From positions 1 to 64,000 of the forward strand of contig CACXMH010000002.1 in NCBI GenBank assembly GCA_902768715.1: a stretch of 64,000 nt of DNA, given 5' to 3'. Both the position numbers and the translations under genes were made by a program. Below the pieces are notes generated by a model. That model saw only the letters and a list, made by a program, of their open reading frames with translations. It did no database searches and was not told the DNA's origin. This document shows positions 3,801 to 50,148 of the stretch, piece after piece. This DNA comes from Fibrobacter succinogenes. GTDB lineage: Bacteria > Fibrobacterota > Fibrobacteria > Fibrobacterales > Fibrobacteraceae. Position 1 is the stretch's first letter, and each line of letters starts with the position of its first letter.

Positions 3801-4340
3801 ATGGAAGAACAAATCGACATCTTGAACCCTGACGGAAGCCCGGCAGGGTATTTTCGCGGGCGCACAGAGGTTCATGCCAAAGGGCTTTGGCACCGCACGG
3901 TCCATATATGGGCCTTTGACGGAGCGGGCCGTGTATTGTTCCAGCTTCGCAGTCACCTGAAGGAGAACAACCCGAACCTTCTGGATACCAGCTGTGCGGG
4001 CCATATCTCTGCTGGCGACACCAGCCGGAACGCCGCCGTCCGGGAACTGAAAGAAGAGTTGGGCGTCCATAAAAATCCAGAGGACTTGGAATATCTCTTT
4101 GAAGCGACTCACGAAAGTGTCTTGAACGATGGTACTTATTTCGACAACGAATATTACGACACATACAAAATAACACTTACCGACGAAGAGGCCGGCCATC
4201 TGGTGCCACAGCCTGGCGAGGTGGATGATTTCGTGTGGATGACGGTGCCGGAATTTTTGGAACTGAACCGCAAGCACCCTGAAAGGTTCGTGAGCCACCC
4301 GAAAGATTACCAATGGCTCGAAAGTATTTCTAGATTGTAG
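3801..4340 (+). CDS. Nudix hydrolase (IPP-isomerase-like branch)
   Basis: 179 residues, cytoplasmic. The Nudix box runs from GHISAGD to RELKEELGV at about residues 73-95 and keeps the metal-binding REXXEEXG core, with aspartate replacing the first conserved glutamate. The surrounding AGHISAGDT and the N-terminal LNPDG...H.KGLWHRTVHIW resemble Nudix proteins related to isopentenyl-diphosphate isomerase. The substrate is not inferable, although a nucleoside-diphosphate-linked compound is expected for the family. No Shine-Dalgarno is visible before the ATG; a REP cluster lies directly upstream. The patatin-like gene follows three bases after the stop. Confidence 0.85.
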   Translation: MEEQIDILNPDGSPAGYFRGRTEVHAKGLWHRTVHIWAFDGAGRVLFQLRSHLKENNPNLLDTSCAGHISAGDTSRNAAVRELKEELGVHKNPEDLEYLFEATHESVLNDGTYFDNEYYDTYKITLTDEEAGHLVPQPGEVDDFVWMTVPEFLELNRKHPERFVSHPKDYQWLESISRL

Positions 4341-5629: not shown

Positions 5630-7120
5630 TTACGGTAGCATCTTGCCGGTTTCGAGGTAGCGGTTGTGCATCTCGAAAGCCTTGCTCAGCGCAAGGGGCA
5701 TGTGCACGCCCTTGGCGTGTTTCAGGCTGTATTCCAAGAAGTCGGTAAGCGGTTCCTTGAAATCAGGGTGTGCGCATTCCTTAATGATGAGCCGCGCCCG
5801 CTCTTCGCTGGCAAGGCCACGCAAATCCGCAAGTCCCTGTTCCGTCACAAAAATCTGGGTGTCGTGTTCCGTCTGGTCCACATGGCTCACGTAGGGCACA
5901 ATGCTACTGATGGCGCCGCCCTTGGCTACCGACGGCGTCAAGAAAAATCCGAGAGCGCAGTTCCTTGCAAAGTCCGCCGCCCCGCCGATGCCGTTCATCA
6001 TAGAAGACCCGCACACGAGAGAACTGTTCACGTTTCCAAAAATATCCGCTTCTAGGGCGGTGTTCATGGAGATGACGCCAATGCGACGGATTACGTCGGG
6101 ACTGTTGCTCACCTCTTGCTGCCGAATGACAAAATGTTTTTTCCAGTCGGCGGCATTACGGATAAATTCGTCTTGTGCGCCCTGGGAAAGTGTAAGGGCC
6201 GTTCCGCTAGCCACGCCCAGCTTGCCCTTTTTGAGCAGGGGGATGACCGCCTCCTGGATGACTTCGGTAAAGATGTCAATTTGCCCCAGGCGCTCGTCGT
6301 TTGCCATGGCGGTGAGCACGGCGTTGGCCACCTTGCCCACGCCGCTCTGGTAGGCCATACCTTTAGGAAGCCTGCCCTTGGATTCTTCGAATCGGATAAA
6401 GTCCAGAATGCGTTCGGCGATGTTGGTGGATACGCTGTCGGGCTCTACGAAGGGCGTCACCTCGTCGTAGCCGGAATTTTCCACGATGGCGATAACCTTG
6501 TTCGGGTCAATCTTTACAAGGTCTTCTCCAACGCGATCGCCTGCGCTGTAAATGGCAAGAGGTCTTGCGTGTGGAGGCAGTTCCGGCAGGGCGTTGTCGT
6601 GGATGCCCATGTAGCTGTCGCCCAGGCGGGTGTTCAACTCCAGGATAATCTTTTCGGAGCGTTCCAGATAGCAGACGGAATTTCCGCCGGAGGTAGAAAG
6701 GCACACACGGCCATCGGGCAGAATAGCGCTTACCTCGATGACGGCAATTTTCGGAGTCGGCACGGCTCCCGTGCGGACCAGGTAGCCCATCTTGCCCAGG
6801 TGTGCGTCTATGTAACGGATAGAACCGTCGTTGATGGCCTTGCGAAGGCTGGGATTGCTCTGGTAAGGCATGCGTAAGTCGATGGCGTTTGCCCGAGCCA
6901 GCGCACCGTCGCAGCTGTCGCCGGTAGAAGCTCCAGAGAAAAGGGAAACCTTGAAGGGCTTGCCTTCACCGTGTAGCTTTTCGGCCCGAGCGGCCAGCGC
7001 GCTTGGTACCGCCTTGGGGTATCCGGCAAGCGTAAAACCCGAAATGCCCAGGATGTCACCGTTTTCAATCATTGCGGCGGCATCGGCCGCCGAACATTTT
7101 TTACTTGCAATCCAGTCCAT
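5630..7120 (-). CDS. Acetyl-CoA hydrolase/transferase family, probable succinate CoA-transferase
   Basis: 496 residues, cytoplasmic. The length and motifs match the class I CoA-transferase branch that includes succinyl-CoA:acetate CoA-transferase: the N-terminal GDILGISGF, IDIFTEVIQE containing the likely catalytic glutamate, GVASGTALTL, and GSSMMNGIGGAADFARN with the oxyanion/CoA-binding glycine-rich loop. It would move CoA between acetate and succinate (or propionate), which fits a succinate- and acetate-producing anaerobe. It is the last gene of a leftward set after the GH5 gene (24 bp gap). A purine-rich GGGAAGGG lies upstream of the ATG. The exact acyl partner is inferred. Confidence 0.87.
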   Translation of the reverse strand: MDWIASKKCSAADAAAMIENGDILGISGFTLAGYPKAVPSALAARAEKLHGEGKPFKVSLFSGASTGDSCDGALARANAIDLRMPYQSNPSLRKAINDGSIRYIDAHLGKMGYLVRTGAVPTPKIAVIEVSAILPDGRVCLSTSGGNSVCYLERSEKIILELNTRLGDSYMGIHDNALPELPPHARPLAIYSAGDRVGEDLVKIDPNKVIAIVENSGYDEVTPFVEPDSVSTNIAERILDFIRFEESKGRLPKGMAYQSGVGKVANAVLTAMANDERLGQIDIFTEVIQEAVIPLLKKGKLGVASGTALTLSQGAQDEFIRNAADWKKHFVIRQQEVSNSPDVIRRIGVISMNTALEADIFGNVNSSLVCGSSMMNGIGGAADFARNCALGFFLTPSVAKGGAISSIVPYVSHVDQTEHDTQIFVTEQGLADLRGLASEERARLIIKECAHPDFKEPLTDFLEYSLKHAKGVHMPLALSKAFEMHNRYLETGKMLP

Positions 7121-9465: not shown

Positions 9466-10332
9466 ATGATCGAAGAAAAAATCCTTATTGTAGATGACAG
9501 TGCCGAAATCCTGAAAAAGAACTGGGAACTGTTGACCCAGGTGGGTTACAAGGTGATATCCGCCACCTCCGGCGAAGAGGCTTTAGCCCTCCTGGAAAAG
9601 GACACCTTCGACCTGGTGCTCCTGGACATCAACATGCCGAGCCTGAACGGCTACGAGGTGTGCCTGCGTATTCGTGAGGGGCATGCCCTGGATGACCTGC
9701 CCATCATTTTCCTTACCAGCCGCGAAGACCCGGACAGCATTACCAAGGGGTTTCATGCAGGAGCTTCCGACTTTGTGGGTAAGCATTCTCCTACTGAAAT
9801 TCTTTTGGCACGTATCAACGTGCATATCCGGCTTTGCCGCACCCTCAAGTACCTGCGCGACATTTCCCTCACCGACGACTTGACCCAGAGTTACAACCGC
9901 AGACACGCCATTTACACCCTGCGCGAATGGTTCTCCCGCAGCAAGCGCTATGGAACGCATTTCTCCATGGTTTATTTTGACCTGAATGGCCTCAAGGCGG
10001 TGAACGACAAGTTCGGGCACCAGGCGGGAGATTTGTTGCTCCGGGCCGTGGTCAAGGCCTGCAAGGACCTGCTTCGTGAATCCGACGTGCTGTTCCGTAT
10101 GGGCGGCGACGAGTTCATGGTTCTCTGCCCCGATACCGACAGGGCGGGAGCGTTAATTTGTGCAGAACGCATGCAAAAGGCGGTGGGCGACATCACCATC
10201 GTAGATCAGAAGGTCTCCTTTGCCTACGGCATCGCCTATTCCGGCGAGGTCTATAAGGACATGGACGAGATGCTCCACAGCGCCGACGCCTCCATGTACG
10301 AGTGCAAAAAGAAGATGCACGCCGGACGGTAA
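9466..10332 (+). CDS. Response regulator with GGDEF diguanylate cyclase output
   Basis: 288 residues. The receiver domain (1-125) has acidic residues D10/D11, phospho-acceptor D54 in LVLLDINMP, the switch threonine/serine in FLTSRED and a lysine near 106. The GGDEF domain (about 130-288) has FDLNGLKAVNDKFGH, an intact GGDEF at 213-217 and an inhibitory I-site RESD five residues upstream (204-207). It should therefore make cyclic di-GMP under phosphorylation control with product inhibition. No histidine kinase is adjacent. GGGGAG precedes the ATG. Confidence 0.92.
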   Translation: MIEEKILIVDDSAEILKKNWELLTQVGYKVISATSGEEALALLEKDTFDLVLLDINMPSLNGYEVCLRIREGHALDDLPIIFLTSREDPDSITKGFHAGASDFVGKHSPTEILLARINVHIRLCRTLKYLRDISLTDDLTQSYNRRHAIYTLREWFSRSKRYGTHFSMVYFDLNGLKAVNDKFGHQAGDLLLRAVVKACKDLLRESDVLFRMGGDEFMVLCPDTDRAGALICAERMQKAVGDITIVDQKVSFAYGIAYSGEVYKDMDEMLHSADASMYECKKKMHAGR

Positions 10333-10633
10333 CCCCTTCCCTCGTCTTCCCTCGTCATCCTCGCCCATTCGGCCTTGCTCAGGGCAGGCTCCGGCGAGGA
10401 TCCGCTTGCACCCTTCCAGCGGATGTTCGCCTTGGTTCGACTTCGCTCACCACAGGTCGCGAACATGACGAACGGCCTAAAATTGTAAAAATAATTTTAC
10501 ATAACATCTCGAAGATGTGATTCCGGGCAATTTTTCGGCATTCCCTACAAAAAACTTACTTTTTCTGGGGCTTTTTTCCTACATTTCCGACCATAGGAAC
10601 AAGGACTCCCTAGTCCAAAACAAGGAGAACAAT
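10333..10633. repeat. Gene-poor spacer with two nested REP-like palindromes and the FISUMP operon promoter region
   Basis: At 10354-10402 the stem ATCCTCGCC/GGCGAGGAT encloses a secondary insert (CTCAGGGCAGGCTCC) that recurs at 45013-45030. At 10420-10471 the stem GGATGTTCGC/GCGAACATGACG encloses a GTTCGACTTCGCTCACCAC-type loop. The remaining 160 bp are AT-richer and must hold the promoter of the lipoprotein operon; AAGGAGAA lies at 10622-10629. Confidence 0.6.
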
Positions 10634-12541
10634 ATGAAGAAACGGCTCTTGGCCATGAGCCTTGCCGCGGGGTTTACGGTTCTTATGACCGCCTGCGGTG
10701 ACGAGACGACCAATACGGATATTATAAAGGCAGAGACCTTTGCTACGGAAGACTCCCTGCCGGACTGTAACAAGGCCTTTGCAGGCAAGTTTGCGACGGT
10801 TGCCGACAAGAAGCAGATTTTGATTTGTGCCCAGGACGGGAGCAGCTTTGACTGGCTCCCTGTGGCAGCATCTGTTCAGTCCGCCACCGATAGTTCGAGC
10901 AAAAAGACCGAGGGTTGCACCGCCAAGGCCCTTGAAGACGGCAGTGGTGTCGAGGTCCTCTGCAACGGCAAGTCCGTGGCTGTGGTCAAGAACGGCGCCA
11001 AGGGCGAACAGGGCCAGAAGGGAGCCGACGGCGAAGACGGCGAAGACGGCAAGAAGGGTTCCGAAGGCAATCTGGGTGCACCTGGTAAGGACTTCAAGCT
11101 GGATTCCACCTATTGCTCCGCCAAGGACTACGGCTACGGTACAATCATCTACGATTGTAACGGGCGTATATACCCCGTGAATGTGTCAGGTGAGGGGTCT
11201 GCCTATACCCAGCCTTGGAAGGCGATATCGATAGATGAGTACTTTTACGATAAATGGGATAGCGATATAGGTTATTTTGAGGGCGTTCATCTGGAAAGTG
11301 CGGCCGCTGGCACAAGCCAGGGTAAGATTGCCCGCTGGGAAGGGGACAGTACCTGGGATTACACCATGTCATATGAGACGTTTGCAAGGAACTTTGCCAT
11401 TGGGGGCAAGGCGACGCTGACCGTGAGTCAGGGGGCTACCCAATATGAGTATGCTGAAGTAGAACCCCTGGTTGGTGCGGCCTTGGAGTTCTATGGTTCA
11501 GAAAGCTTGTTTGACTGGCGCGGTATTTGCCTGGCCTACACCGCCACGGATTCTATGCAGATTGTTGTCCGCAATTCTGAAGGCCGGATTGCCCGTGCGT
11601 CTCTCGCCCCTGCTGCAGACAACACCGTGGCCGACATCCTTGTCACCGAGTTTGTTCCCGACAGCGAAAGTGTTGATTTGGGCGACATTATGAACGATGC
11701 CGAGTACATCTACGTCAAGGCGGTGGGTAGCCTTGAGGCAGGCACCTATGAGAACACCTTTGCCATCTATGAATTTGGCGCCTACGGCCAGTGTTCTAAT
11801 GAAGTTACCGGTTTGGGTATCAAGGCTGCCATCTTGGAAGCCAGGGGCGAGGCAACGCCTGACTTGGAAGATGGTCGAATTGACCCGACAGACCCGGAAA
11901 TCTACAAGACGGTGAAAATCGGCAACCAGGTGTGGATGGCGGAGAACCTGCGGATACCTTATGGTTACTTGTCTGCCGAGACGGATGAGGATCCTGATGT
12001 TGTAACCGGCGAGAAAATGGCATACTGCCCGACGGATCCCGATGAGCTGGCCGCTAAGGGGTGCCTCTATACCTGGGCTGCCGCTATGGATAGCGCCGCA
12101 CAGCTCAGTGGCAAGACTAGTACGGATCCGGGCTACAATGTGTGTGGTAATGGCGTGAGTTGCACCGCCGAGGCCCCCGTGCAGGGCATCTGCCCCGAGG
12201 GCTGGCACCTGCCCAGTAAGGATGAAATTGATACGCTGTTGAACATTGCCTCTTATGGCGGTGAATACGAGCAAATGAGATTTTTGGCCTTGGCTGGGGA
12301 TACGGCGAATGGCCTCAATTGGCTTGGGTTCTCATCCATTGCGACGGGTATCTGGGACGCCGATGCTTCTCAAATCAATTTTACTGGAACCTCCTATTTT
12401 AGGCTTTCTAGCCAGACAGGAACCTTTCCGATGTTTATGCTGATAAGTACGGATGATGGAGAGGTTTCAGTCAACGAAGCCGGCTGGGGTGCTGAAAATA
12501 TGATGTCTGTCCGTTGCATCAAGGACCAGGTTGAGGAATAA
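10634..12541 (+). CDS. FISUMP-domain lipoprotein 1 with collagen-like segment
   Basis: 635 residues. A lipoprotein signal ends at Cys21 (VLMTAC). A short collagen-like Gly-X-Y stretch (about 122-155, GAKGEQGQKGADGEDGEDG and onward) is followed by a unique central domain. The C-terminal Fibrobacter succinogenes major paralogous domain (about 413-635) has the hallmarks YKTVKIGNQVWMAENL, CLYTWAAAMD, GICPEGWHLPS and a final VRCIKD. The ATG at 10634 follows AAGGAG; the longer open frame to 10517 lacks a signal. The role is unknown and a surface-adhesive or binding role is plausible. First gene of a three-gene paralogous operon. Confidence 0.87.
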   Translation: MKKRLLAMSLAAGFTVLMTACGDETTNTDIIKAETFATEDSLPDCNKAFAGKFATVADKKQILICAQDGSSFDWLPVAASVQSATDSSSKKTEGCTAKALEDGSGVEVLCNGKSVAVVKNGAKGEQGQKGADGEDGEDGKKGSEGNLGAPGKDFKLDSTYCSAKDYGYGTIIYDCNGRIYPVNVSGEGSAYTQPWKAISIDEYFYDKWDSDIGYFEGVHLESAAAGTSQGKIARWEGDSTWDYTMSYETFARNFAIGGKATLTVSQGATQYEYAEVEPLVGAALEFYGSESLFDWRGICLAYTATDSMQIVVRNSEGRIARASLAPAADNTVADILVTEFVPDSESVDLGDIMNDAEYIYVKAVGSLEAGTYENTFAIYEFGAYGQCSNEVTGLGIKAAILEARGEATPDLEDGRIDPTDPEIYKTVKIGNQVWMAENLRIPYGYLSAETDEDPDVVTGEKMAYCPTDPDELAAKGCLYTWAAAMDSAAQLSGKTSTDPGYNVCGNGVSCTAEAPVQGICPEGWHLPSKDEIDTLLNIASYGGEYEQMRFLALAGDTANGLNWLGFSSIATGIWDADASQINFTGTSYFRLSSQTGTFPMFMLISTDDGEVSVNEAGWGAENMMSVRCIKDQVEE

Positions 12542-12554
12542 GGAGGGCTAAACA

Positions 12555-14489
12555 ATGAAAAAGTTTACTATGAAAAATCCTATTATGTCATCCTGGAGCA
12601 AGCGTAGCGCTGCGATAGGATCTATGTTGGCCCTTGCCTTCCTCTTCGGCGCCTGTGGCGATGATGTTACCAACGACAGCGTGGTCAAGGCAGAATCCTT
12701 CGCCGATAAGGCCAACCTGCCCAGCTGTAGCGAAAAGTATGAGGGCATGTTTGCCACAATCCCCTCTAAGGGCGAAATCTATTTCTGCACACAGAAAAAG
12801 TGGCAGCCTGTTGTGAGTGGAACATCCGCCGACGGCAAGGGTGCTGAGGTGGAAATGCCAACTTGCTCCACCGTCGAGCTTGCCGACAAGAGCGGCTTCA
12901 AGGTGGTCTGCGGCGGCGATTCTGTGGCGGTAGTCAAGAACGGCGCCAAGGGCGAACAGGGCGACAAGGGTGACGATGGCGACCCCGGTTCTAAGGGGTC
13001 GGAAGGTGACCCCGGTCCTAAGGGTAAACCCGGCAAGGACCTTACTCTGGATTCGAGCCTTTGCGTAACCCGGTATTATGGCTATGATGTGATTATCTTC
13101 GAGTGTGGTGATTCTACCTACTCGGTGAACATTCAGAATTATAGCAGCTATAAGCTCGATACGTGGTATCCAAGCAAAATGGACGACGTTGTGTATGATG
13201 TAGATGGAAATGATGATATAAACATGTACGTAGTTGCTCACGAAAGTGGCGCTGCAGCCAAGGGTAAAGGTACTCTGGTTCGCTGGCAGGGGGATGAAGC
13301 TTGGAAGTCTCCTATGATAAAGAACTATGGTATTGATGGCTTGGTGAAGAATGAAGCCATCGCGGGCAAGGCCTCTATGGTGGTCGAGGCGAATGCAACG
13401 CCCAATGATACGCTGGGTATCGAACCCTTCGTTGGGCTTTATCTAGAGTATCAATATCATTCCTTTGCTGTTTACGGCGGACTTTGTTTTACCTACACCT
13501 CTGAAACGGCAATGGATGTTGTCGTTTGGCTGAAAAAGGGTAAAACGGCCCGCGTAACGCTTGAACCGGCCTCCGAAAAGACCACGGTGGACATTATGGC
13601 AAGCCAGTTTGTTCCCGATGCCGATACCGTTAGTCTTGATGAAATTATGAAGAGTGCTTGGGAAGTTTATATCGTTCTTGCGGGGGGGCTTGAGGCCGGT
13701 ACCTACGAGAACAACTTTGCCTTCTATGAGATTGGTGGTTTTGGCGGCTGCGGTGTCGAGCGCGAAACTATTGCAGACATCAAGGCAAAGATTCAGGAAG
13801 CCAAAGGCGAAGCGACGCTGGACTTGGAAGATGGTCGAATTGACCCGACAGACCCGGAAATCTACAAGACGGTGAAAATCGGCAACCAGGTGTGGATGGC
13901 CGAGAACCTGCGGATACCTTATGATTACTTGTCTGCCGAGACGGATGACGACCCTGATGTTGTAACCGGCGAGAAAATGGCATACTGCCCGACGGATCCC
14001 GATGAGCTGGCCGCCAAGGGTTGCCTCTATACCTGGGCTGCCGCTATGGACAGTGCCGGAAGGCTTAACGGCAAGACTAGTACGGATCCGGGCTATAATG
14101 TATGCGGTAACGGTATGAATTGCACTGCTGAGGCCCCTGTACAGGGCATCTGCCCCAACGGCTGGCACCTGCCCAGCGATGACGAAATCGATACGTTGCT
14201 AAGCATCGCCTCTTATGGTGAGGAGTACCCGATTATGGCGGAAATTTTGGCCTTGACCGGGGACACTGCGAACGGACTCAACTGGCTCGGGTTCTCGGGG
14301 AACGGCAGGGGGTACACGTATAACTTTACGGATATAGCTGACACTACCTACCTCTACCTGTGGTCTAGTCTTAATGGGGGGGGGGCTGATTATTCAACAA
14401 TGTTATCTATAAACCCCTTCCATATCTATAGTGGTAGTAATGAAAAAGCTTACGGGTATTCTGTCCGTTGCATTAAGGACGCGGAATAA
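12555..14489 (+). CDS. FISUMP-domain lipoprotein 2 with collagen-like segment
   Basis: 644 residues, same architecture as its upstream neighbour: lipobox cysteine near residue 34 (FLFGAC), collagen-like GDKGDDGDPGSKGSEGDPG region near 135-160, a divergent middle, and a FISUMP domain from about residue 420. The DNA encoding the start of the FISUMP domain (about 13814-14100) is almost identical to 11854-12140 in gene 1, whereas the middle is very different. The first 30 codons and the Shine-Dalgarno are almost identical to those of gene 3. This mosaic suggests gene conversion or domain shuffling. A run of eight G near 14380 could be slippage-prone. Confidence 0.87.
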   Translation: MKKFTMKNPIMSSWSKRSAAIGSMLALAFLFGACGDDVTNDSVVKAESFADKANLPSCSEKYEGMFATIPSKGEIYFCTQKKWQPVVSGTSADGKGAEVEMPTCSTVELADKSGFKVVCGGDSVAVVKNGAKGEQGDKGDDGDPGSKGSEGDPGPKGKPGKDLTLDSSLCVTRYYGYDVIIFECGDSTYSVNIQNYSSYKLDTWYPSKMDDVVYDVDGNDDINMYVVAHESGAAAKGKGTLVRWQGDEAWKSPMIKNYGIDGLVKNEAIAGKASMVVEANATPNDTLGIEPFVGLYLEYQYHSFAVYGGLCFTYTSETAMDVVVWLKKGKTARVTLEPASEKTTVDIMASQFVPDADTVSLDEIMKSAWEVYIVLAGGLEAGTYENNFAFYEIGGFGGCGVERETIADIKAKIQEAKGEATLDLEDGRIDPTDPEIYKTVKIGNQVWMAENLRIPYDYLSAETDDDPDVVTGEKMAYCPTDPDELAAKGCLYTWAAAMDSAGRLNGKTSTDPGYNVCGNGMNCTAEAPVQGICPNGWHLPSDDEIDTLLSIASYGEEYPIMAEILALTGDTANGLNWLGFSGNGRGYTYNFTDIADTTYLYLWSSLNGGGADYSTMLSINPFHIYSGSNEKAYGYSVRCIKDAE

Positions 14490-14502
14490 GGAGGGCTAAA
14501 CA

Positions 14503-16359
14503 ATGAAAAAGATTACTATGAAAAATCCTATTATGTCATCCTGGAGCAAGCGTAGCGCTGCGATAGGATCTATGTTGGCCCTTACCTTCTTCGCTGCTTG
14601 CGGCGACGACGTCACCGACAATGACCCGGTAACCACTCAGGGCTACGAAAGCGAAGAGGCTTTCCCCAAGTGCGATGCCGATTACGAGGGCTATTTTGCC
14701 ACCCTGCTTTCTAGCCAGGATGTCTATATATGCACGGCCAAGAACTGGGTGAACATCAGCAAGGCTGGCAGCAATGCGGGCACCTCTAGCAAGGCCAGCT
14801 GCACAGCCGAAGAACTCTCTGACGGTACAGGCGTTGAAATCACCTGCAACGGCAAAAAGAGCGTGCTGCAGTACGGCAAGCAGGGCGCCCAGGGTGACCC
14901 CGGCAAGGCCGGTTCCAATGCCGAAAACGGCAAGGCGGGTGAACCAGGTGGCAAGGGTAAGGATGGCGATGACGCTGTACCCGATGCGGATCGCTGCTTT
15001 GTCAAGTACGAGGTGGGTGACGTGGTGCTCTTCGAGTGCGGCGACTCCACTTATGTGCGGAGTATGGATAGATATACCCAGTATTATGGTACATGGGATA
15101 GCTGGAAAGCTTATACCTCTACTGGTTCCAAATACAACAGTGTCTGGGGTCCTTCTGACACCCTTAAATCCTTTTATAACAACCGCTTTGGCAGTGGCGC
15201 AACAGGTTCGCTTGTTCGTTTCGAAGGGGATGATTCTTGGGAAAGCCCCTCTCTTGTTGCACGGCAGGACTTTGTTATAAACAAGGGCTTTGCCGGTACG
15301 GCAACGGTTAATATTACTGAGGCTCAGGAAATTACCGCTGATAAGTATAGACCTTTTGTTGGAATACGAATGCCTTTCTATTCTGCTCAAAAGATTTCCG
15401 ATATTGCACAGGGTGGTGGATTCTGTCTTACCTATTCTTCGGATAGCGTTATGGCGCTGCTGTTGAAGGGAGATTCCGGCTACGTCAAGGCAGAAATCCC
15501 CGCTACAGAAAATGGTGCGGAATCCGTCGTGGACATTTCTATCGATGACTTTAAACCCGTTACTGACAGCGTGAATGTGCAGGCAGTTATGGGAGCCGTG
15601 GATACGGTTTACATTGAAGTTGTTGGTGGAGAGGCTGTCGGAACATATAGCAACAAGTTTGGTTTATACCAGTTTGGTAGCTATGGGTCGTGCAATGGGC
15701 AGACGTACAGCAAGTCAGCTTGGAAGACTTATATAGATGGCATAAGGGGCAATGATAGCACGTTCACGGACGTCCGTGACGGTCGTGTTTACAAGACCGT
15801 GACCATTGGCGACCAGACATGGCTTGCCGAGGACCTGAAGTTCAAGTTTAGAGGAAGCGCTACTGATACGAGTATCTGCCTTGGTCAAAGCGTCAATGCG
15901 GATACCTGTGAGACCTATGGACAGCGCTATACATGGCTACAGGCAGTGAACAACCAAGATGGGTGTGTATCGACGAGTACAGCTTGCAGTCCGGCCCTTC
16001 CGGACACGGTGCAGGGTATCTGTCCCAACGGTTGGCACTTGCCCTCTATGAGGGAGTGGGGTAAGATGGTTGTTTTGGTACGTGGTACAACGACCGCGAC
16101 TTACTTTGATAAAATTGCTTTCCTTTCAAGGAGAGGGTATCCAAGTGCCGTGGGCGGAAATGAATCCGGATTGGATCTGGTTATGTACGGCACGGACTGC
16201 TATTGGTGGACTTCGTATGATCAGGCACGTGCATTTAATATAACATCAGGTGCAGTCTACAACGGCGGAGGGAATCCTATTACGGAAGAAAATTACACTG
16301 GATATTCGCGTACCAAAACATATCGTTTCGCCGTCCGTTGTGTAAAGGACGCCGAGTAG
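14503..16359 (+). CDS. FISUMP-domain lipoprotein 3 with short collagen-like segment
   Basis: 618 residues. The signal region matches gene 2 almost base for base, then diverges after the lipobox (cysteine near 33, TFFAAC). A Gly-rich collagen-like part (GAQGDPGKAGSNAENGKAG) lies near 127-155. The C-terminal FISUMP domain (about 425-618) has VYKTVTIGDQTWLAEDL, RYTWLQAV, GICPNGWHLPS and VRCVKDAE, but is more divergent than those of genes 1 and 2. GGAGGG precedes the ATG, 13 bp after the previous stop. A terminator follows, closing the operon. Confidence 0.87.
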   Translation: MKKITMKNPIMSSWSKRSAAIGSMLALTFFAACGDDVTDNDPVTTQGYESEEAFPKCDADYEGYFATLLSSQDVYICTAKNWVNISKAGSNAGTSSKASCTAEELSDGTGVEITCNGKKSVLQYGKQGAQGDPGKAGSNAENGKAGEPGGKGKDGDDAVPDADRCFVKYEVGDVVLFECGDSTYVRSMDRYTQYYGTWDSWKAYTSTGSKYNSVWGPSDTLKSFYNNRFGSGATGSLVRFEGDDSWESPSLVARQDFVINKGFAGTATVNITEAQEITADKYRPFVGIRMPFYSAQKISDIAQGGGFCLTYSSDSVMALLLKGDSGYVKAEIPATENGAESVVDISIDDFKPVTDSVNVQAVMGAVDTVYIEVVGGEAVGTYSNKFGLYQFGSYGSCNGQTYSKSAWKTYIDGIRGNDSTFTDVRDGRVYKTVTIGDQTWLAEDLKFKFRGSATDTSICLGQSVNADTCETYGQRYTWLQAVNNQDGCVSTSTACSPALPDTVQGICPNGWHLPSMREWGKMVVLVRGTTTATYFDKIAFLSRRGYPSAVGGNESGLDLVMYGTDCYWWTSYDQARAFNITSGAVYNGGGNPITEENYTGYSRTKTYRFAVRCVKDAE

Positions 16360-16385
16360 CGAATAACCGCACCGAATCTTAAATC

Positions 16386-16421
16386 AAAAAAGAGACCGTG
16401 AAAACGGCCTCTTTTTTTGTC
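16386..16421 (+). terminator. Terminator of the FISUMP lipoprotein operon
   Basis: The stem AGAGACCGT/ACGGCCTCT (one mismatch) with a GAAA-like loop is followed by seven T. Confidence 0.8.
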
Positions 16422-16465: not shown

Positions 16466-18082
16466 TTACGAGTCGCAGCGGGCGGCGGATGTGAGGGCGT
16501 AGCGGCCGCTGGCGGTTTCGCATTCGGCCCGCAGGTAGGCCAAACCCGCTGTGCTCACCTCGATAGTCTCGTTCTGGCTTGTGGCCACGAGGCTTTCGGG
16601 GCAAATTTCTTCTTTGGCGGCCCATTTACCATTTGATAGAATACGGCGCTTGTAGATGCGTATGTAGCGGAAACCGCCGCCTAAATCTTGGGTGCTCTGG
16701 GCGTGGAACTTTACGGTATCAACCTCGCGATCCCACCAGAGGGCGGGTCCGTCGGTGATGTAGCAGTTTTCGCCTGAGAAGGCTTGTTTCAGAGCTTTGG
16801 GTGTGACGGCGGAAGGGGTAGCGGGAGCCGCTAGGAGATCCCCGCTTTCGCGGGGATGACAAAGAGGGTCGCGGGGATGACAAGGGGTGGACGCGAGGGG
16901 GAGGCTTCCCCCTTTCACGACGGTGCGGACTTTTCCGAAGACGTGGTGACGGTTGTTCCCCAGGGAGAAAAGCGGCAGGCGCACGAAGGTGGTGTCGTTC
17001 ATGTCGCCGTGGGCGTCGTTTCCGCCGATGGGGAGTAGGAAATTTCCTTTGCCCAGTTCTTCGATCCACCAGGCTTTCCCCAGCTGGAATCCCTCGTCGC
17101 GGATGCCGTTCCAGAACTGGATGCCGCGAACGGGGTGCTTTGCGTCTAGGTGCAGGTCTGCGGTTTTCCAGTAGCCGCGCCGGAAGATGAATTTTTCAAG
17201 CGCTCCCATTTGCTGCAGGGGGTGGGCGGCAAAGCAGGGGGCGTCCGTCATATCGAGGATGCGCCCGATGGGGAGCGTGGGCCTGTTGTTGAGCCAGTAG
17301 CGCCCGCAGTCGCCGAGGCCCGGCAGGTAGGAGGTGGGCCCGAGGGCGGTCATGTGCACGTTTTCGCCCTTGCTGTTGCCTGCGGAGATTTCTTCGCCGG
17401 CGATGAGGAGCGGCTTTGCGGGGAGTGCGGCGATTTCGTCTTTCAGGTTTTGGAAACGCGCCGATGCCGACGGGGCTTCTTTGGTGTAGTCTTCGACGGT
17501 AAAGGCGAAATCGTAGGCGTGGTCCGTAAAGTTCACGAAGTCGAGTCCTACAGCCTCTGCCGCCTGCTGCATCACGGCGGGACTTGCGCCGTATTCCACG
17601 TGGTCTGCCGAGTAGTAGGTGTGGCAGTGCATTTCGCCGGCGGCAAATCCTTCGGGTTTGGGAAGCTCGTGCCGGAGTACCTGGATTTTTAGCGGCGAGG
17701 GTTTCAGGCCCGGAAAGTTCCAGCGCTGGAAGGTCCGTTCCTTGCCGTTGCGGCACGCAACGACCTTCGGGAAAATCTCGTAGAGGCCAGGTTCCAGCGC
17801 ACCGATTCCTACGGGGAAAAAGAGGAAGGGCTGGTCCGCTTTTAGGTCCAGGTGGTCAAAACGCCGGGTTTCGTCGGGGCTGTTTTCGCCTAGGCGCCGG
17901 ATTGTAATTTCAAGGCTCTTGATGGTGGCACAAAACCGGTGGGCGTCCCGCACCACAATCCACAGCAGGGGAGTTTTGCCCGGCACAAACTGGAACGGTG
18001 CGTCCGTGAAAATTTCGGGCCAGGGCCTGTACAGCAGGGACCAGGGCAGCCTGAACTTGAAGTGGGTCTCGGCGTAGTGCAT
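16466..18082 (-). CDS. CehA/McbA-type PHP-domain metallohydrolase
   Basis: 538 residues. The PHP core begins near 150 with GEMHCHTYYSADHVEYGA (the metal-binding HxH) and FVNFTDHAYDF, then GEEIS, CFAAHP and a late GGNDAHGD, the usual PHP metal ligands. An N-terminal domain of about 145 residues precedes it. No signal peptide is evident. The substrate is unknown; named family members hydrolyse diverse phospho- or carbamate esters. The ATG lies three bases after the stop of the preceding outer-membrane gene with GGAG overlapping it, so the genes are translationally coupled. About residues 393-425 are encoded by a REP palindrome inserted in frame, between conserved stretches. Confidence 0.8.
   Translation of the reverse strand: MHYAETHFKFRLPWSLLYRPWPEIFTDAPFQFVPGKTPLLWIVVRDAHRFCATIKSLEITIRRLGENSPDETRRFDHLDLKADQPFLFFPVGIGALEPGLYEIFPKVVACRNGKERTFQRWNFPGLKPSPLKIQVLRHELPKPEGFAAGEMHCHTYYSADHVEYGASPAVMQQAAEAVGLDFVNFTDHAYDFAFTVEDYTKEAPSASARFQNLKDEIAALPAKPLLIAGEEISAGNSKGENVHMTALGPTSYLPGLGDCGRYWLNNRPTLPIGRILDMTDAPCFAAHPLQQMGALEKFIFRRGYWKTADLHLDAKHPVRGIQFWNGIRDEGFQLGKAWWIEELGKGNFLLPIGGNDAHGDMNDTTFVRLPLFSLGNNRHHVFGKVRTVVKGGSLPLASTPCHPRDPLCHPRESGDLLAAPATPSAVTPKALKQAFSGENCYITDGPALWWDREVDTVKFHAQSTQDLGGGFRYIRIYKRRILSNGKWAAKEEICPESLVATSQNETIEVSTAGLAYLRAECETASGRYALTSAARCDS
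16831..16900. repeat. REP/dRS3-like palindrome inside a coding sequence
   Basis: ATCCCCGC/GCGGGGAT stands at 16838-16859 with a second partial copy (CGCGGGGATGACA) right after. On the coding strand it reads as CHPRDPLCHPRESGDLL, the typical translation of this palindrome family, and keeps the metallohydrolase frame open. Confidence 0.8.
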
Positions 18083-34773: not shown

Positions 34774-34832
34774 AAGTGCCCAGGATTGTAAATGGGCGTG
34801 TTTGTTGTTGTGTAGAAAAGAACGAGGCTTTT

Positions 34833-37580
34833 ATGTCGGCAAAAAAACAAAATGGAATTTTCCTATTTGTGATGACCATGCTGCTGTTTGCGGTGTGGGG
34901 TTTTGCCGCTGAAATCGACTGCTTCGACAAGTCGAATAACTATTACAAGAAGAACTATTGCGTTTACATGCCCCTGGATGTATCTGCCCATGCGGGTCTC
35001 TTTGTGATAGATGCGAACACCAAGGATACGCTCCCCAATTCTCCCCTCTACGTTTATGCTCCTGATGCGGGCCCGGATTCTGTTGTGCTGATATCAGGTG
35101 AGCCGCCTGCAGCCCTTTCCCACAAACAACTTAGCCAGTCTGGCCCCGACGGAATCTTGCATTTGGCGGTTGTAGGGCATTTTCCAAAGAAAAACTCTCC
35201 TTTGGGGGTCTTGGTTACTCTTGCCGATAATCCGAAGATCATCAATGTCTTCAATTTTTACCCCCCTCATTTCCAGTTCTGCCTGGATCCTGACTGCAAG
35301 GACACCGTCGATGTTTCCAGTATTCAGCGGAATGTGGAAGACACGATAACGGTTTATGTGCGTCCTGTGGTGCCCTGGGGTCCCAAGGAAGGCGAACTGG
35401 ATGTGTTAATTCCCGATTCCACGCAGTATTTTCTCTCTTCGGAACACGAAGAACTGAAGTTCTTGACAGGTTCGGGAGACCCTATGGGGCATGTTAAAAT
35501 TGACGGAAAGACCTATTACCTGGGCATGATCCTGAAACACAAGTCCGTTTTCAAAATAACCTCCGACAAGGCCCTTACCGACGTGAACTTTACGCTGGAA
35601 TCGTCCCCGTACACCTTCTCGAACGGAACTACGGTCTTCCGCGCCAAAGAGGAATTTCCGGGCAAGATTCGTTTCGTGAACTACGACCTCCCCAGCCTGG
35701 ACAGCGCCTTTATTTATGATACCGACGGCGATGGTGTGGGTGACAGCATAGCGGCCTACTTCAACGGTAAAATGGACGGAGTCTCGTTGGACAATTACCA
35801 GTACAACTGGCCCACTGGCGGGGACTATACGACATTCAGCGGGACGGCCTCCCTGGAAGATTTCTTGCTGGAATTGTCCGGTGTCAAGACCACGATTCCC
35901 GATAGTGCGGGGACGGGAAAATTGAAGGTGGGTGCCTCGTCCGCCAAGTCCGGAGCTAACGATACGCTTTCTACGGATATCCAGGACCGCATCGGCCCTG
36001 TCATCCAGACAGCAACCCTTGTTCCGGGAGACGGTGAATCCGATTACCTGATTCTTAGTTTCAATAAGCCCCTGGATACGTCTTGGACCTCGGGTAGTGG
36101 ATTCCTCCTGGATGGGATACCCCTGTCTATGGAAGCTGTTGAAAAAGGCGTAGATGGAAACGACCGTATTTGGAAATTCAAGGTGCCCAAGAACAAGGTC
36201 AAGGAAGGCTCCGAAATAGAGATTGCCGAAGACTGTGCCGAATGTAGTGCTGGCCCAATAAAGGCCGCCGACGGCAACAAGACGGGCAAGAACAACCCCG
36301 TGAAGATTTCCAATTCGGGCAAGAACTTCGTAGATGACGAACGGAACGGTTTCTATGACAAGGACGGCGATGGCCGTATGGACAGTGCCACCGTGGCGTT
36401 CAAGGAGCCCCTCTCCAAGAAGGACCTGGAAGAGATGGAGGTGGTGCTGTACTGGATGGACAACCAGGGCAACCTGCTAGAAATCAAGCCCGACCTGACG
36501 GACACCAATTTGGTAAAGCTCTCCAAGGACGGCCTCATGCTTTCTTTTACCATGGACGAGGCCACCATGAAAAAGGTCCGCCCCATGCTTACCTCCGTGG
36601 ATACTACGGGAATGGCCGATAGCCTCAAGTACGGTTTTGCCAAGGTCACGAAGCCCGTGATCCAGCCGGACGGAACGGTAAAGAACGAAGTTTACAAGGA
36701 CATCGTCATGCACGACCGCATGTCTCCCGTGATATCGGGAACGTTCCTAGAGCCGGAGTCCTTCCAGAAGATGGAAGCGGACGTGCTGACCATCTCCTTC
36801 TCCGAGCCTGTAGATTATGAGGCCCTGGAGAACCTGTCGCTTTTGTCGGACTGCTTCAAGTTCAAGGTAGATGGAGAGTGGGTGTCTATCCCCTTCAGTT
36901 CGCTCAGGTGGAGCGACGACGGCAAGTCCGTAAAACTCCAGCTGGAAAACGGCGTGCCCCTTGCAGAACGCCTGAACCCTGCAGATTCCATGAAGTTCGA
37001 CTTTGAGAAGGCAGGCCTGAAGGACAAGGTCGGGAACGGAGTTTCGCCCAAGTCTCCTCCGACGATGGTCAAGGGCGACCCCCGCGTGCTGATGCAGTCC
37101 ACCACCCTTGCAAGTCTTGACAGGGCGGTACTCTTGGCAGACAAGGCGGCCTTTACCGAAAGATTCGTCAATGCCGACGAACCCATGGACGAAGAGATGA
37201 AAAAATCCCTCGGAATCTTGATGGATATCAGTTTTGCGACGGTCATGGGCGAAGATTCTACGGGCGTTTCGACAATGAACCTGGACGATGTGGGCCTTTC
37301 TTGGGAACTGAAGGTGTTCACCAACCTAGGGAGCTATGTAGGCGGCGCATCGAACAAGTTAAAGTGCAGCGACCCCGCCTTTGAAGGGAATTGCTTTGAG
37401 CACGCGAAAAAGCTGTACCTTCGCTGGAACATGCGCTCTAGCGAAGGCCGCAAGGTGGGCGTGGGTGTTTATGTGGCACAGTTCAAGATTAATGTCTATG
37501 GTGCAAAGAACAGTTTTAAAGTTGAAAGGATTTACAACTGGGGAATCCGCGCCGGTAAGGGCGGTCTTTCGCTTGAATAG
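34833..37580 (+). CDS. Large secreted protein with Ca-binding-like repeats and FlgD-like C-terminal domain
   Basis: 915 residues. The signal peptide (FLFVMTMLLFAVWGFAAE) defines ATG 34833, which is preceded by ACGAGG. Repeated modules carry DTDGDGVGDS and DKDGDGRMDS, EF-hand-like aspartate loops, each followed by SbsA/Ig-like strands with FNKPLD, FKEPLS or SFSEPVDY. The C-terminal 110 residues (LYLRWNMRSSEGRKVGVGVYVAQFKINVYG) look like an Ig-like FlgD or surface-sorting domain and resemble the end of the next protein. The role is unknown; surface display is likely. 24 bp separates it from the next gene, implying an operon. Confidence 0.78.
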   Translation: MSAKKQNGIFLFVMTMLLFAVWGFAAEIDCFDKSNNYYKKNYCVYMPLDVSAHAGLFVIDANTKDTLPNSPLYVYAPDAGPDSVVLISGEPPAALSHKQLSQSGPDGILHLAVVGHFPKKNSPLGVLVTLADNPKIINVFNFYPPHFQFCLDPDCKDTVDVSSIQRNVEDTITVYVRPVVPWGPKEGELDVLIPDSTQYFLSSEHEELKFLTGSGDPMGHVKIDGKTYYLGMILKHKSVFKITSDKALTDVNFTLESSPYTFSNGTTVFRAKEEFPGKIRFVNYDLPSLDSAFIYDTDGDGVGDSIAAYFNGKMDGVSLDNYQYNWPTGGDYTTFSGTASLEDFLLELSGVKTTIPDSAGTGKLKVGASSAKSGANDTLSTDIQDRIGPVIQTATLVPGDGESDYLILSFNKPLDTSWTSGSGFLLDGIPLSMEAVEKGVDGNDRIWKFKVPKNKVKEGSEIEIAEDCAECSAGPIKAADGNKTGKNNPVKISNSGKNFVDDERNGFYDKDGDGRMDSATVAFKEPLSKKDLEEMEVVLYWMDNQGNLLEIKPDLTDTNLVKLSKDGLMLSFTMDEATMKKVRPMLTSVDTTGMADSLKYGFAKVTKPVIQPDGTVKNEVYKDIVMHDRMSPVISGTFLEPESFQKMEADVLTISFSEPVDYEALENLSLLSDCFKFKVDGEWVSIPFSSLRWSDDGKSVKLQLENGVPLAERLNPADSMKFDFEKAGLKDKVGNGVSPKSPPTMVKGDPRVLMQSTTLASLDRAVLLADKAAFTERFVNADEPMDEEMKKSLGILMDISFATVMGEDSTGVSTMNLDDVGLSWELKVFTNLGSYVGGASNKLKCSDPAFEGNCFEHAKKLYLRWNMRSSEGRKVGVGVYVAQFKINVYGAKNSFKVERIYNWGIRAGKGGLSLE

Positions 37581-37604
37581 TAAATTCTTTCAGAGGGTAG
37601 CGCT

Positions 37605-40600
37605 ATGAAAAAGATGGCTATTACATTAGGGTTATGGATGTTGCTTGCCTCGGCGACGCTGGTGTTCGCTGTGGACAATATCCCTGCTCCGAGAAATCCG
37701 GCCACGGGAGTCTGGATTAATCGAATCGGTGAAATCGTGGACCAACAGCCCACGAACGCCACCTTGTATTACACCAAGTATATTGGCGAAGACCGCGTCA
37801 AGAGTATTGACTATTTCTATAACGGCAAGGGGTATCTCTCTCTTTCCAACAAGAAGTTGCAGTGTAAATCTCGTTACGCCGACGGTATTATGCACCATCC
37901 TGATGGCGATTTGATTGTGGCGGGTCAGGGCGCACACCTCTACAAGATAAGGAAAAACAATGCAAGTGCCGACTCGAATAAATGCGTGATAAAGGAGTCG
38001 CCGGCAAAATATAAAACCAAGGATTCTGGAGCGAACGGTACCCAGGGCTATTGGCATGTGATGGTGGATCCCAGTCAGAAGTTTGTTTGGGCCGACGGTA
38101 TGCCGGGCCCCTTGGTTCGCTATGCCGTGGACAATACAAATGATAATGGTCTGTCGGATGTGGGCTATCAGGTAAAATTGACTCCGAAAAAAGACTATGG
38201 AAAATTGTGGCGTCCCAATAATAACCAATGGTCAAATTCCACCAAAAAGGGAGAACAGGTCACTACCGTGATATGGGACGGGGATGGTCATGCCTTCTTC
38301 ACATACTCCATTTATGCGGGGGGTGGATGCGAAACGGACATTAAAGGAGATTCCTGCAGTGCTGCATTGAAAACGAGTTGGCGGGCGGGTTCTCACTTTG
38401 GGTATTTCTCGGATACCGTATGGCAAAAGATAGAGACAAGGGAAGACTCCATAAAGTATCTTGGACATAGGGGAGATTCCGTAGTTACTGAATTAGAAAC
38501 GACGATTCTGATAGATTCTTTGGAAGGTGCCCATGGCGGCACGTACGACTCCCTTTCAAAGACCATCTTTATTTTCGGAGGATCTAAGATTGTCCAGATA
38601 AAGCCTGAGATTCGTGATGGTGCGATGACGGCCAGGGTTGTGGCAGAAATAGATTTACGCAAATACTTTTTCCCGGAGGATACGACTCATATGCCTCCAC
38701 CACGAACTCCCTCATGCCAACAGAGAGCAGATCCGAGCACTGGTGAATGGGTGACCAGAAATTATAATTACGAAAGTGGTTACTGCGATGGCGGAACAAC
38801 CCAGTCGGGTGGCATTGCCACGGTGGGTTGGCGTTTGGACCAGGGAACCGTAGATGGATTTGGACACCTGTTTGTGGCTAGTAACACGGGTCACGTGATT
38901 TTTGTGGACTATGCGGCGAATGACTCCCTTTACATTAGGGATAATATTCTTTTGCACATGGAGTGGATTGACAACTTCTTGGACGACTTGGCTCCTCTGG
39001 AAAAGGATAAAGTGATTCGTTCCAGCGCGAGCAGCTTTGGAGGGCTGTCTTCTAGTGATTACGAAAGGCTGAGTTCACAAGTGGAGTATCACTCCTCTAG
39101 TAGCATGAGCTCGTCGAGTAAAGGGAGTACTCCTGGTAGTAGCGGAAGCTCCTCTAATAGCAACGGTTCCAGCGGTAGTGGGAATTCCTCTAATAGCAAT
39201 GGTTCCAGCAATAGTGGAGACTCTAGCAACAGCGGAGAATCTTCCGGCAGTAACGGATCCTCTAGCAACAGCGGCGAATCCTCCGACAGTAACGGTTCTT
39301 CTAGCAACAGCGGCGAATCCTCCGGCAGCAACGGTTCCTCTAGCAATAGCGGGGAATCCTCCGACAGTAACGGTTCTTCTAGCAACAGCGGCGAATCCTC
39401 CGGCAGTAACGGTTCCTCCAGCAACAGCGAAGACGAAGGCGGTGGAATCCTTTACGGAAGCAGTAATTCCGATACCGACCCCTCTGGCGGTGGTGCAATT
39501 TACGGATATAGTGCCGGTAGTGGTGGCTATTACAACCCTTCTTGGGACGATTATGACAAGGGCGATTCTGTAGTACAGACTTCTGGTGTCTTGACACCTG
39601 CCAATGACAAGAAGCCCGGTGATGCGGGAACAGTGACCATCTTCGATAACGTGTACTACGTAGATAAATATCCTATCTCGATCCCGCTGGACTTCCGTCA
39701 GAATGCCAATCTTGATTCGGCCAAGGTGGGAGACGTAGTTGCCATCACTCTCAGCGCCGACAAGGTGAAAGAGTATTTCGGCGATAGCGTGCAAACCCTG
39801 ACGATTACCACGCCTTCTGGCCTTACCTTGATAGACCCGAAGAATCCCAAGCCCGGCGAGTCCATCGAAGTGGATGCCAATGGCAATGTTACCTTCTATG
39901 TGACCGCCTACGAACCGGTTCAAAATGGCGAGATCTACATTACGGATGATGTGGGCAATTTGGTGGTGCTGGACAACATCAACTTCTTTGCCGTTGTTCC
40001 CGATGGCAAGGTGGCCATGATCAAGGATTCCGATTTGGATAGCCAGCTGGACTATGTGGAAATCCTGTTGCAGGATACGCTACCCAAGAACGTGTCGATC
40101 ACTTCCGTCACTATGGTGGTGAATGGCAAGGTGATGAATCCTGCTACAGTGCCCACGCCCAATAGGGAAAGGAACAGGATTATCTTGAACGATGTGACGG
40201 ACCTGACGTTCCCCGATGAAATTGACCTGAGTTCCTATGTGAGCATTGAATACAAGGACGAAACGAATGGCGCTATTTATGTGCGCAAGGTACCTTTGAT
40301 TGAATTGGGCACAAACATCATCAAGGCTGCCCATGCCATCAGGGATACTTCCAAGGGCGGCATGGATTCCCTGTTTGTGGAATTCAATATCGATGTGGTG
40401 CCCTATGACTTGCGCTACCCGGAAATGCTCATTGCCATGAAGCAGAAAGGAAAGGAGATTTTCTTTGGCCTGGGACAAGTTTCCAAGGTTTACCTGCCCT
40501 CGAAGAATATTGTCATCTTTGTGGGTGAGAACCTGAAGCTTCAAGGAAATATGAAGGACAGCGTTTCCCTGTATCCTAACGTGACATTCAATGACGCTCC

Positions 40601-50120: not shown

Positions 50121-50148
50121 CACATTTTTGTAATTTTAGGGGGTGCTT

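Follow-up and report, generated by a model that had tools for sequence, protein, structure and literature searches.

Three adjacent genes for FISUMP-domain lipoproteins (g1, g2, and g3) lie in tandem in a 64,000-nucleotide (nt) stretch of Fibrobacter succinogenes DNA (contig CACXMH010000002.1 of assembly GCA_902768715.1, positions 1 to 64,000; here, the window). All three are present and intact, and near-identical DNA shared by neighbors suggests that this trio of surface lipoprotein genes has been under non-reciprocal recombination (probability about 0.85, judged from the sequence comparisons given below).

The trio and its occurrence

All three genes exceed the curated family cut-offs of TIGR02145 (41.65 bits) and PF09603 (33.9 bits).

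10634..12541, forward strand: g1, FISUMP lipoprotein, 635 amino acids (aa), read from the ATG at 10634 (the mechanical open reading frame [ORF] opens earlier, at 10517); PF09603, 78.4 bits; TIGR02145, 104.2 bits
12555..14489, forward strand: g2, FISUMP lipoprotein, 644 aa; PF09603, 81 bits; TIGR02145, 103.4 bits
14503..16359, forward strand: g3, FISUMP lipoprotein, 618 aa; PF09603, 49.3 bits; TIGR02145, 106.2 bits

The window is contig C2 of a draft genome (G000, here W; 2.84 Mb, 114 contigs, ~95% complete), the nearest relatives of which are uncultured Fibrobacter metagenome-assembled genomes (MAGs). Out of 80 Fibrobacter genomes searched, seven carry the trio with a full-length middle: W, A (G016, CAMKMX010000010; also locus L033), B (G017, CAMIWK010000011), C (G002), D (G085, the same as CAMHDS010000006; locus L035), E (G087), and F/H, a pair of contigs from G097 (loci L153 and L154, the latter being contig C250). 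The other 15 matching genomes gave part-length matches only. Draft completeness, where stated, was 62 to 95%. Trio genes are labeled by genome (W1, W2, and W3 for g1, g2, and g3 of W; likewise A1 to A3, B1 to B3, C, and D).

Shared blocks and replaced blocks

The stretches common to neighboring genes, with the tracts read from them, are as follows.

11864..12091, forward strand: putative young g1/g2 conversion tract, g1 copy, residues 411 to 486 (identity profile, four-taxon sites, trees)
13824..14051, forward strand: the same young tract, g2 copy, residues 424 to 499 (identity profile, four-taxon sites, trees)
12092..12313, forward strand: putative older g1/g2 tract, g1 copy, residues 487 to 560, ~80% identical to g2 at the nt level (sub-block counts)
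14052..14276, forward strand: the same older tract, g2 copy (sub-block counts)
12528..12644, forward strand: junction with the Shine-Dalgarno sequence and 5′ end of g2, common with g3 (repeat search, codon profile)
14476..14592, forward strand: junction with the Shine-Dalgarno sequence and 5′ end of g3, common with g2 (repeat search, codon profile)

A repeat search matched 11819-12118 with 13779-14078 (91%), 12528-12644 with 14476-14592 (95%), and, as a third and weaker block absent from a preliminary description of this DNA, 10915-11034 with 12863-12982 (75%). That description had reported three adjacent paralogues with near-identical blocks and strong divergence between them, and the repeat search, a codon profile, and a shuffle test bear it out. 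In the profile (protein-guided codon alignment, 30-codon windows), g1 residues 412 to 486 and g2 residues 425 to 499 were 96 to 99% identical at the nt level in four windows, each with 24 to 27 of 26 to 28 synonymous-comparable codons identical; the near-identity earlier noticed at the FISUMP start of g1 and g2 thus includes synonymous codons. Divergence along the genes is not uniform: g1/g2 identity is ~40 to 60% over most of the middle and 56 to 62% just before the block, and after it ~80% at g1 residues 487 to 560 and then 34 to 46% at the C terminus. The likeness claimed for the Shine-Dalgarno sequence and first codons of g2 and g3 was also recovered, with 98% nt identity over residues 1 to 31, 47% by residues 32 to 61, and ~50% beyond. 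Because synonymous codons step along with nt identity, protein conservation alone does not explain the blocks. The middles, previously called unrelated at the DNA level, are in fact homologous (37% aa identity for g1/g2, 27% for g2/g3), their DNA identity going down to 43 to 52%.

Synonymous-comparable codons were permuted 2,000 times, with the longest run of identical same-amino-acid codons as the statistic. The observed runs of 25 codons (g1-g2) and 22 codons (g2-g3) were each reached in 0 of 2,000 shuffles; the g1-g3 run of 4 was reached in 1,998 of 2,000, that is, no run is shared. The same test was positive for A2-A3 (run of 21; 0/2,000), borderline for B2-B3 (13/2,000), and negative for A1-A2 (557/2,000) and B1-B2 (369/2,000), the last two pairs being positive in a nucleotide-run test alone (0/2,000 each). 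No long run was seen in the C and D pairs, a few of which gave weakly positive results (C1-C2, 35/2,000, and C2-C3, 6/2,000, each in one of the two tests).

When the locus was compared across relatives, as the preliminary description had proposed, block exchange was seen in W and B, with the middles staying with their own gene. The flanks of W and A are ~96% identical. Informative sites among W1, A1, W2, and A2 comprised 519 of ortholog type, 20 of paralog type (grouping by genome), and 5 cross sites; 18 of the 20 paralog-type sites fell in g1 bins 420 to 479 (60 codons), where ortholog-type sites numbered zero. The tree of the middle united W1 with A1 and W2 with A2 (support 100/99) and rejected W1+W2 (p-AU [approximately unbiased test], 1e-38), and that of the FISUMP start united W1 with W2 (100/99) and rejected W1+A1 (p = 0.0008) and W2+A2 (p = 0.004); both blocks were picked after the identity profile had been seen, so these p values do not come from a blind test. 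At g1 residues 411 to 425, W1 and W2 differ at 0 of 45 nt and A1 at 1 of 45, with W2-A2 at 18 of 36 plus three gap codons, which favors, rather than proves, copying from g1 to g2. In the loop (residues 443 to 468), W1-W2 differ at 3 of 78 versus 32 of 72 for W1-A1. In B, residues 411 to 425 differ at 2 of 39 nt between B1 and B2 and at 17 of 39 between W1 and B1 (flank B1-B2, 35/75). Since g1 and g2 of B share this stretch and differ there from W1, at least two exchanges appear to have occurred at the same place. Residues 487 to 560 are equally alike within W (W1-W2, 49/222) and within A (A1-A2, 48/222) and not within B (B1-B2, 89/189), with W1-A1 at 6/222, which points to an older exchange predating the W/A split. 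The g2/g3 5′ ends are alike in W (4/90), A (7/87), and B (6/84) and unlike in C (17/48) and D (19/48), as raw counts without a tree. The gene conversion proposed in the preliminary description is well supported for neighboring g1 and g2, because the tract edges are sharp with synonymous identity, the flanks are orthologous, the trees switch, and a second lineage has its own exchange.

Block sharing occurs in other FISUMP arrays but is not the rule. Among 75 loci fetched, 56 had at least two FISUMP domains, and blocks of at least 100 nt and at least 88% identity at or near a FISUMP domain were found in L033 (relative A), L057, L080, L088, and L099. In L099, from another Fibrobacter, a 229-nt repeat (3906-4134 and 6629-6857; 99% identity) at or near FISUMP genes is possibly another conversion case.

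Other parts of the trio appear to have been replaced as blocks, above all in g3.

15080..16330, forward strand: part of g3 diverged from relative A, read as an allelic replacement (~47 to 66% identity in most 100-bp bins, one stretch at 85 to 88%)

Between W and A, g3 is 98 to 100% identical over 14600-15000 and then 47 to 66% over most of 15100-16400, the stretch at 85 to 88% apart; most synonymous codons in the diverged part have changed (in one block, 2 of 18 remain). A donor for this part was found neither among 36 relatives nor in its own genome: the best match beyond its own copy was the orthologue in A (75% over 390 nt), and the remaining matches were FISUMP-core-sized or short orthologue matches. 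Between D and E, identity is 93 to 100% in the FISUMP half of g2 and at the beginning of g3, and 50 to 90% in most of the rest. F and H come from a single draft genome. Their left ends are 99% identical, identity is ~45 to 80% over much of the sequence between, and at the right the two contigs terminate in the same 99 nt, matched exactly; frames are broken in the second and third genes of H. The pair resembles two alleles of the operon within a single sampled population and may instead reflect a second copy, contamination, or assembly effects. Across the trio, the FISUMP start and the 5′ ends are homogenized, and diversification is strongest in the C-terminal half of the FISUMP domain and, within g3, over most of its 3′-terminal two thirds.

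The cassette-style diversification suggested in the preliminary description stands in part: blocks are replaced across lineages (W/A, D/E, F/H), but an exchange of middle cassettes is unsupported, and silent donors were not found. A DNA search of the W genome with both blocks returned the operon copies only and no silent or partial donor copy; the next-best matches were 49 to 53 nt of FISUMP core and one spanning 37 query bases. Other FISUMP genes of this genome and of the genus retain the FISUMP core (~48 nt) at 79 to 94% identity. RVT_1 (reverse transcriptase) was not found in the W, A, B, C, or D drafts (0/5), and was matched in 18 of the 80 genus genomes. The drafts are incomplete, so the absence of a silent copy or RVT_1 is not proof.

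9466..10332, forward strand: response-regulator/GGDEF gene, the upstream neighbor, kept near the trio in relatives

This gene precedes the trio in A, B, C, E, and F. In relative D (L035, 3160-8043), the block upstream of the trio that holds the GGDEF and menaquinone-biosynthesis genes appears in the opposite orientation to that in the window. Just 5′ of g1, 10335-10490 is a dispersed intergenic repeat with ~40 partial matches genome-wide on both strands. On the other side, 16466-18082 (reverse strand) is a 538-aa ORF without a Pfam match, in which a stretch of low complexity (HPRDPLCHPRESGD...) resembles a dispersed repeat inserted in frame; W and A align with gaps at this place. Two long ORFs at 34776-41867 (934 and 1,420 aa), also without a Pfam match, are among the most divergent stretches between W and A, and 50143-52152 encodes a 669-aa protein with a weak match to the CHU_C type IX secretion signal (24.7 bits; cut-off, 27).

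Predicted architecture of the proteins

Each trio protein begins with a hydrophobic leader, after which come a cysteine and a run of acidic residues; we take this to suggest a lipoprotein exported to the surface. Each is predicted to consist of a lipid anchor, a small N-terminal module, a short collagen-like stalk, a jelly roll resembling carbohydrate-binding module family 11 (CBM11), and a C-type-lectin-like FISUMP head. The stalks were scored against PF01391 (cut-off, 27.2 bits).

10994..11086, forward strand: collagen-like GXY stretch, g1 residues 121 to 151 (25.5 bits, below the cut-off)
12942..13034, forward strand: collagen-like GXY stretch, g2 residues 130 to 160 (27.8 bits, just over the cut-off)
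14875..14970, forward strand: collagen-like GXY stretch, g3 residues 125 to 156 (21.3 bits, below the cut-off)
13089..13745, forward strand: predicted CBM11-like jelly roll, g2 residues 179 to 397 (1v0a; Z, 11.6; root mean square deviation [rmsd], 3.0; 147 aligned)
11912..12523, forward strand: FISUMP domain, g1 residues 427 to 630 (Pfam scan)
13872..14477, forward strand: FISUMP domain, predicted C-type-lectin-like, g2 residues 440 to 641 (Pfam scan, structure comparison)
15799..16347, forward strand: FISUMP domain, g3 residues 433 to 615 (Pfam scan)

The AlphaFold2 model of g2 had a mean predicted local distance difference test (pLDDT) score of 77.9, with residues 200 to 420 mostly in the high 80s and 90s. 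Its jelly roll also matches CBM29 (Z, ~10.5), CBM30, and CBM4, which supports the superfamily and not CBM family 11 itself; chains of complex I assembly factors score 11.3, so the jelly-roll fold alone is no proof of sugar binding. By sequence, no CBM family was matched in the trio proteins (Pfam scan, listed to E 0.1). For the FISUMP domain within the full g2 model, the nearest solved structure was the C-terminal domain of Legionella Lcl (8q4e; Z, 8.1; rmsd, 2.5; 104 aligned). A FISUMP-only model (pLDDT, 75.8) matched Bdellovibrio Bd2740 best (Z, 7.8), followed by Lcl (8q4e; Z, 7.4; rmsd, 3.0; 98 aligned), snake-venom C-type lectins (Z, ~7.0), and variants of the phage protein Mtd (Z, 6.6 to 6.9); most of the structural matches listed were C-type-lectin-like chains, with Z scores modest but mostly of one kind. 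Foldseek alone gave no FISUMP-domain match with E < 0.001, and a search of solved structures by sequence returned only collagen peptides and chance matches. The trio proteins may be glycan or plant-fiber adhesins.

A run of ten G residues lies inside g2 near the 3′ end (14376-14385); the genome has three such runs, and the other two lie outside long ORFs. Gaining or losing a single G would truncate the protein inside its FISUMP domain, by 33 or 26 residues. A slip-strand role for the tract is unsupported, as none of the other 14 trio genes in W, A, B, C, and D contains it.

Competing explanations, known systems, and meaning

Strong constraint, on the protein or an RNA element, might keep the blocks alike, given that FISUMP core DNA is conserved across the genus and that the ribosome-binding site and signal peptide are located at the 5′ ends, but it would not hold synonymous codons constant along 75 codons of a single gene pair, the same stretch differs at 32 of 72 nt between W1 and A1, orthologues that are ~96% identical around it, and the block is unconserved in C or D; we consider this explanation very improbable. 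Just as little credence goes to a misassembled metagenome contig, whether a chimera or a collapsed repeat. W and its relatives are fragmented drafts, and the relatives are MAGs, yet the two copies differ (3/78 and 3/54 in sub-blocks), past each block the sequence again resembles that of its own orthologue (W1-A1, 6/222), and similar blocks occur in two independent assemblies (A and B) of other species. Tandem order and shared junctions would fit a recent partial duplication, with the trio formed by unequal crossing-over and the blocks as remnants; against this, three genes with gene-specific middles are present in seven species, including those without shared blocks, so the trio is older than the blocks, and such an origin is also highly doubtful. 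Most improbable, in our judgment, is a diversity-generating retroelement (DGR) acting on the trio. FISUMP is a known DGR target domain (Fib_succ_major is found in nine DGR variable proteins of human microbiomes [PMC4159848]), DGR targets are said to have variable regions that systematically adopt the C-type-lectin fold (PMC8144416), the C terminus of the trio proteins is the most variable part, and the predicted FISUMP fold resembles the phage DGR protein Mtd, but a DGR would not copy synonymous sites between paralogues. With no reverse transcriptase found in the incomplete drafts of W, A, B, C, or D, retroelement diversification of the trio was rejected.

Some observations weigh against non-reciprocal recombination in the trio, or against parts of that interpretation. 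All loci are metagenome assemblies, and C, D, and E are without long shared blocks. As to the direction of copying, an older exchange with later replacement in A2 fits too. The FISUMP fold matches are modest (Z, 7.4 to 8.1). W-A divergence is patchy elsewhere in the window (31-42 kb, 50.6-51.5 kb), and elevated divergence is not operon specific: 100-bp bins below 85% identity make up 20 of 57 scored in the operon and 152 of 564 elsewhere. We make no claim of a hotspot for the operon, because the remaining part of the window has further divergent genes and, beyond 58.6 kb, a stretch that is not homologous.

The sequence comparisons show that short tracts are copied between adjacent genes (the FISUMP start between g1 and g2; the ribosome-binding site and signal-peptide end between g2 and g3), that such exchange recurs in separate lineages, and that other blocks, above all g3 past the stalk and the C-terminal half of FISUMP, have been replaced by divergent alleles from an unsampled donor. 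Ordinary RecA-type homologous recombination, seeded by conserved islands of DNA (gene junctions and the ~48-nt FISUMP core), may carry out the exchange, and the mixed heads and 5′ ends, if displayed at the surface and under selection for diversity, may diversify surface binding or what phages meet. Conservation of the middle suggests a common scaffold and class of ligand, and variation of the FISUMP C terminus suggests a changing specificity or a changing phage target.

In Fibrobacter genomes, FISUMP (TIGR02145) is listed as putatively cellulose binding, with 17 to 119 copies in all but one of the Fibrobacteres genomes examined (PMC4704652), and one member was reported in the cell-envelope fraction on cellulose and absent on glucose (PMC4619616). 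The trio is like these proteins, as far as the available text of the two papers describes them, in domain, genus, and extracytoplasmic location, the known members also being present in many copies; the same text includes no collagen-like stalk, CBM11-like middle, trio, or conversion. Lcl is reported to be a lectin-like adhesin that forms trimers and carries a collagen stalk, and its homologues occur in the Fibrobacterota-Chlorobiota-Bacteroidota group (PMC11162425); its collagen-like stalk and C-terminal C-type-lectin-like head correspond to those predicted for the trio proteins. By sequence, however, Lcl carries DUF1566 and the trio FISUMP (no PF07603 match in the trio at E 0.1); Lcl also differs in its long stalk and in lacking a CBM-like middle, and the trio scores 18.5 on NF046116 (cut-off, 500).

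DGR variable proteins (Mtd, TvpA, and lipoprotein relatives) have the C-type-lectin fold that is predicted for the trio and, like the trio, are most variable near the C terminus; the trio differs in that no reverse transcriptase was found and that variation comes in blocks, synonymous sites included. Gene conversion among tandem surface-protein paralogues is known from treponemal tpr and Borrelia vls, which resemble the trio in mosaic tracts between neighboring paralogues with diverged flanks. In the trio, unlike those systems, no silent cassette archive was found, and all three copies look intact and expressible. Searches of the open-access literature returned no earlier report of gene conversion in Fibrobacter. 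The interpretation of the trio as gene conversion plus block replacement in tandem adhesin-like genes is well supported, and this way of varying surface proteins is already known.

Few proteins of Fibrobacter, a main cellulose degrader of herbivore guts, are more abundant or less understood than those with FISUMP domains. The trio, with its exchanged heads and 5′ ends and its predicted CBM-like domain and lectin-like head on a collagen-like stalk, offers a concrete model of adhesion and provides naturally occurring chimeras whose heads vary independently of their middles. We offer tentatively, as a somewhat unlikely possibility, that core and junction DNA act as a pairing seed for reshuffling heads and 5′ ends among adjacent adhesins around a fixed CBM-like middle, so that a C-type-lectin-like head diversified by retroelements in other bacteria would, by local recombination in Fibrobacter, yield a changing set of fiber-binding or phage-facing proteins. 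On that view, the two operon versions of G097, with their identical 99-nt end, may be two such alleles in one population. The trio suggests that a fold varied elsewhere by retroelements is here varied by plain recombination.

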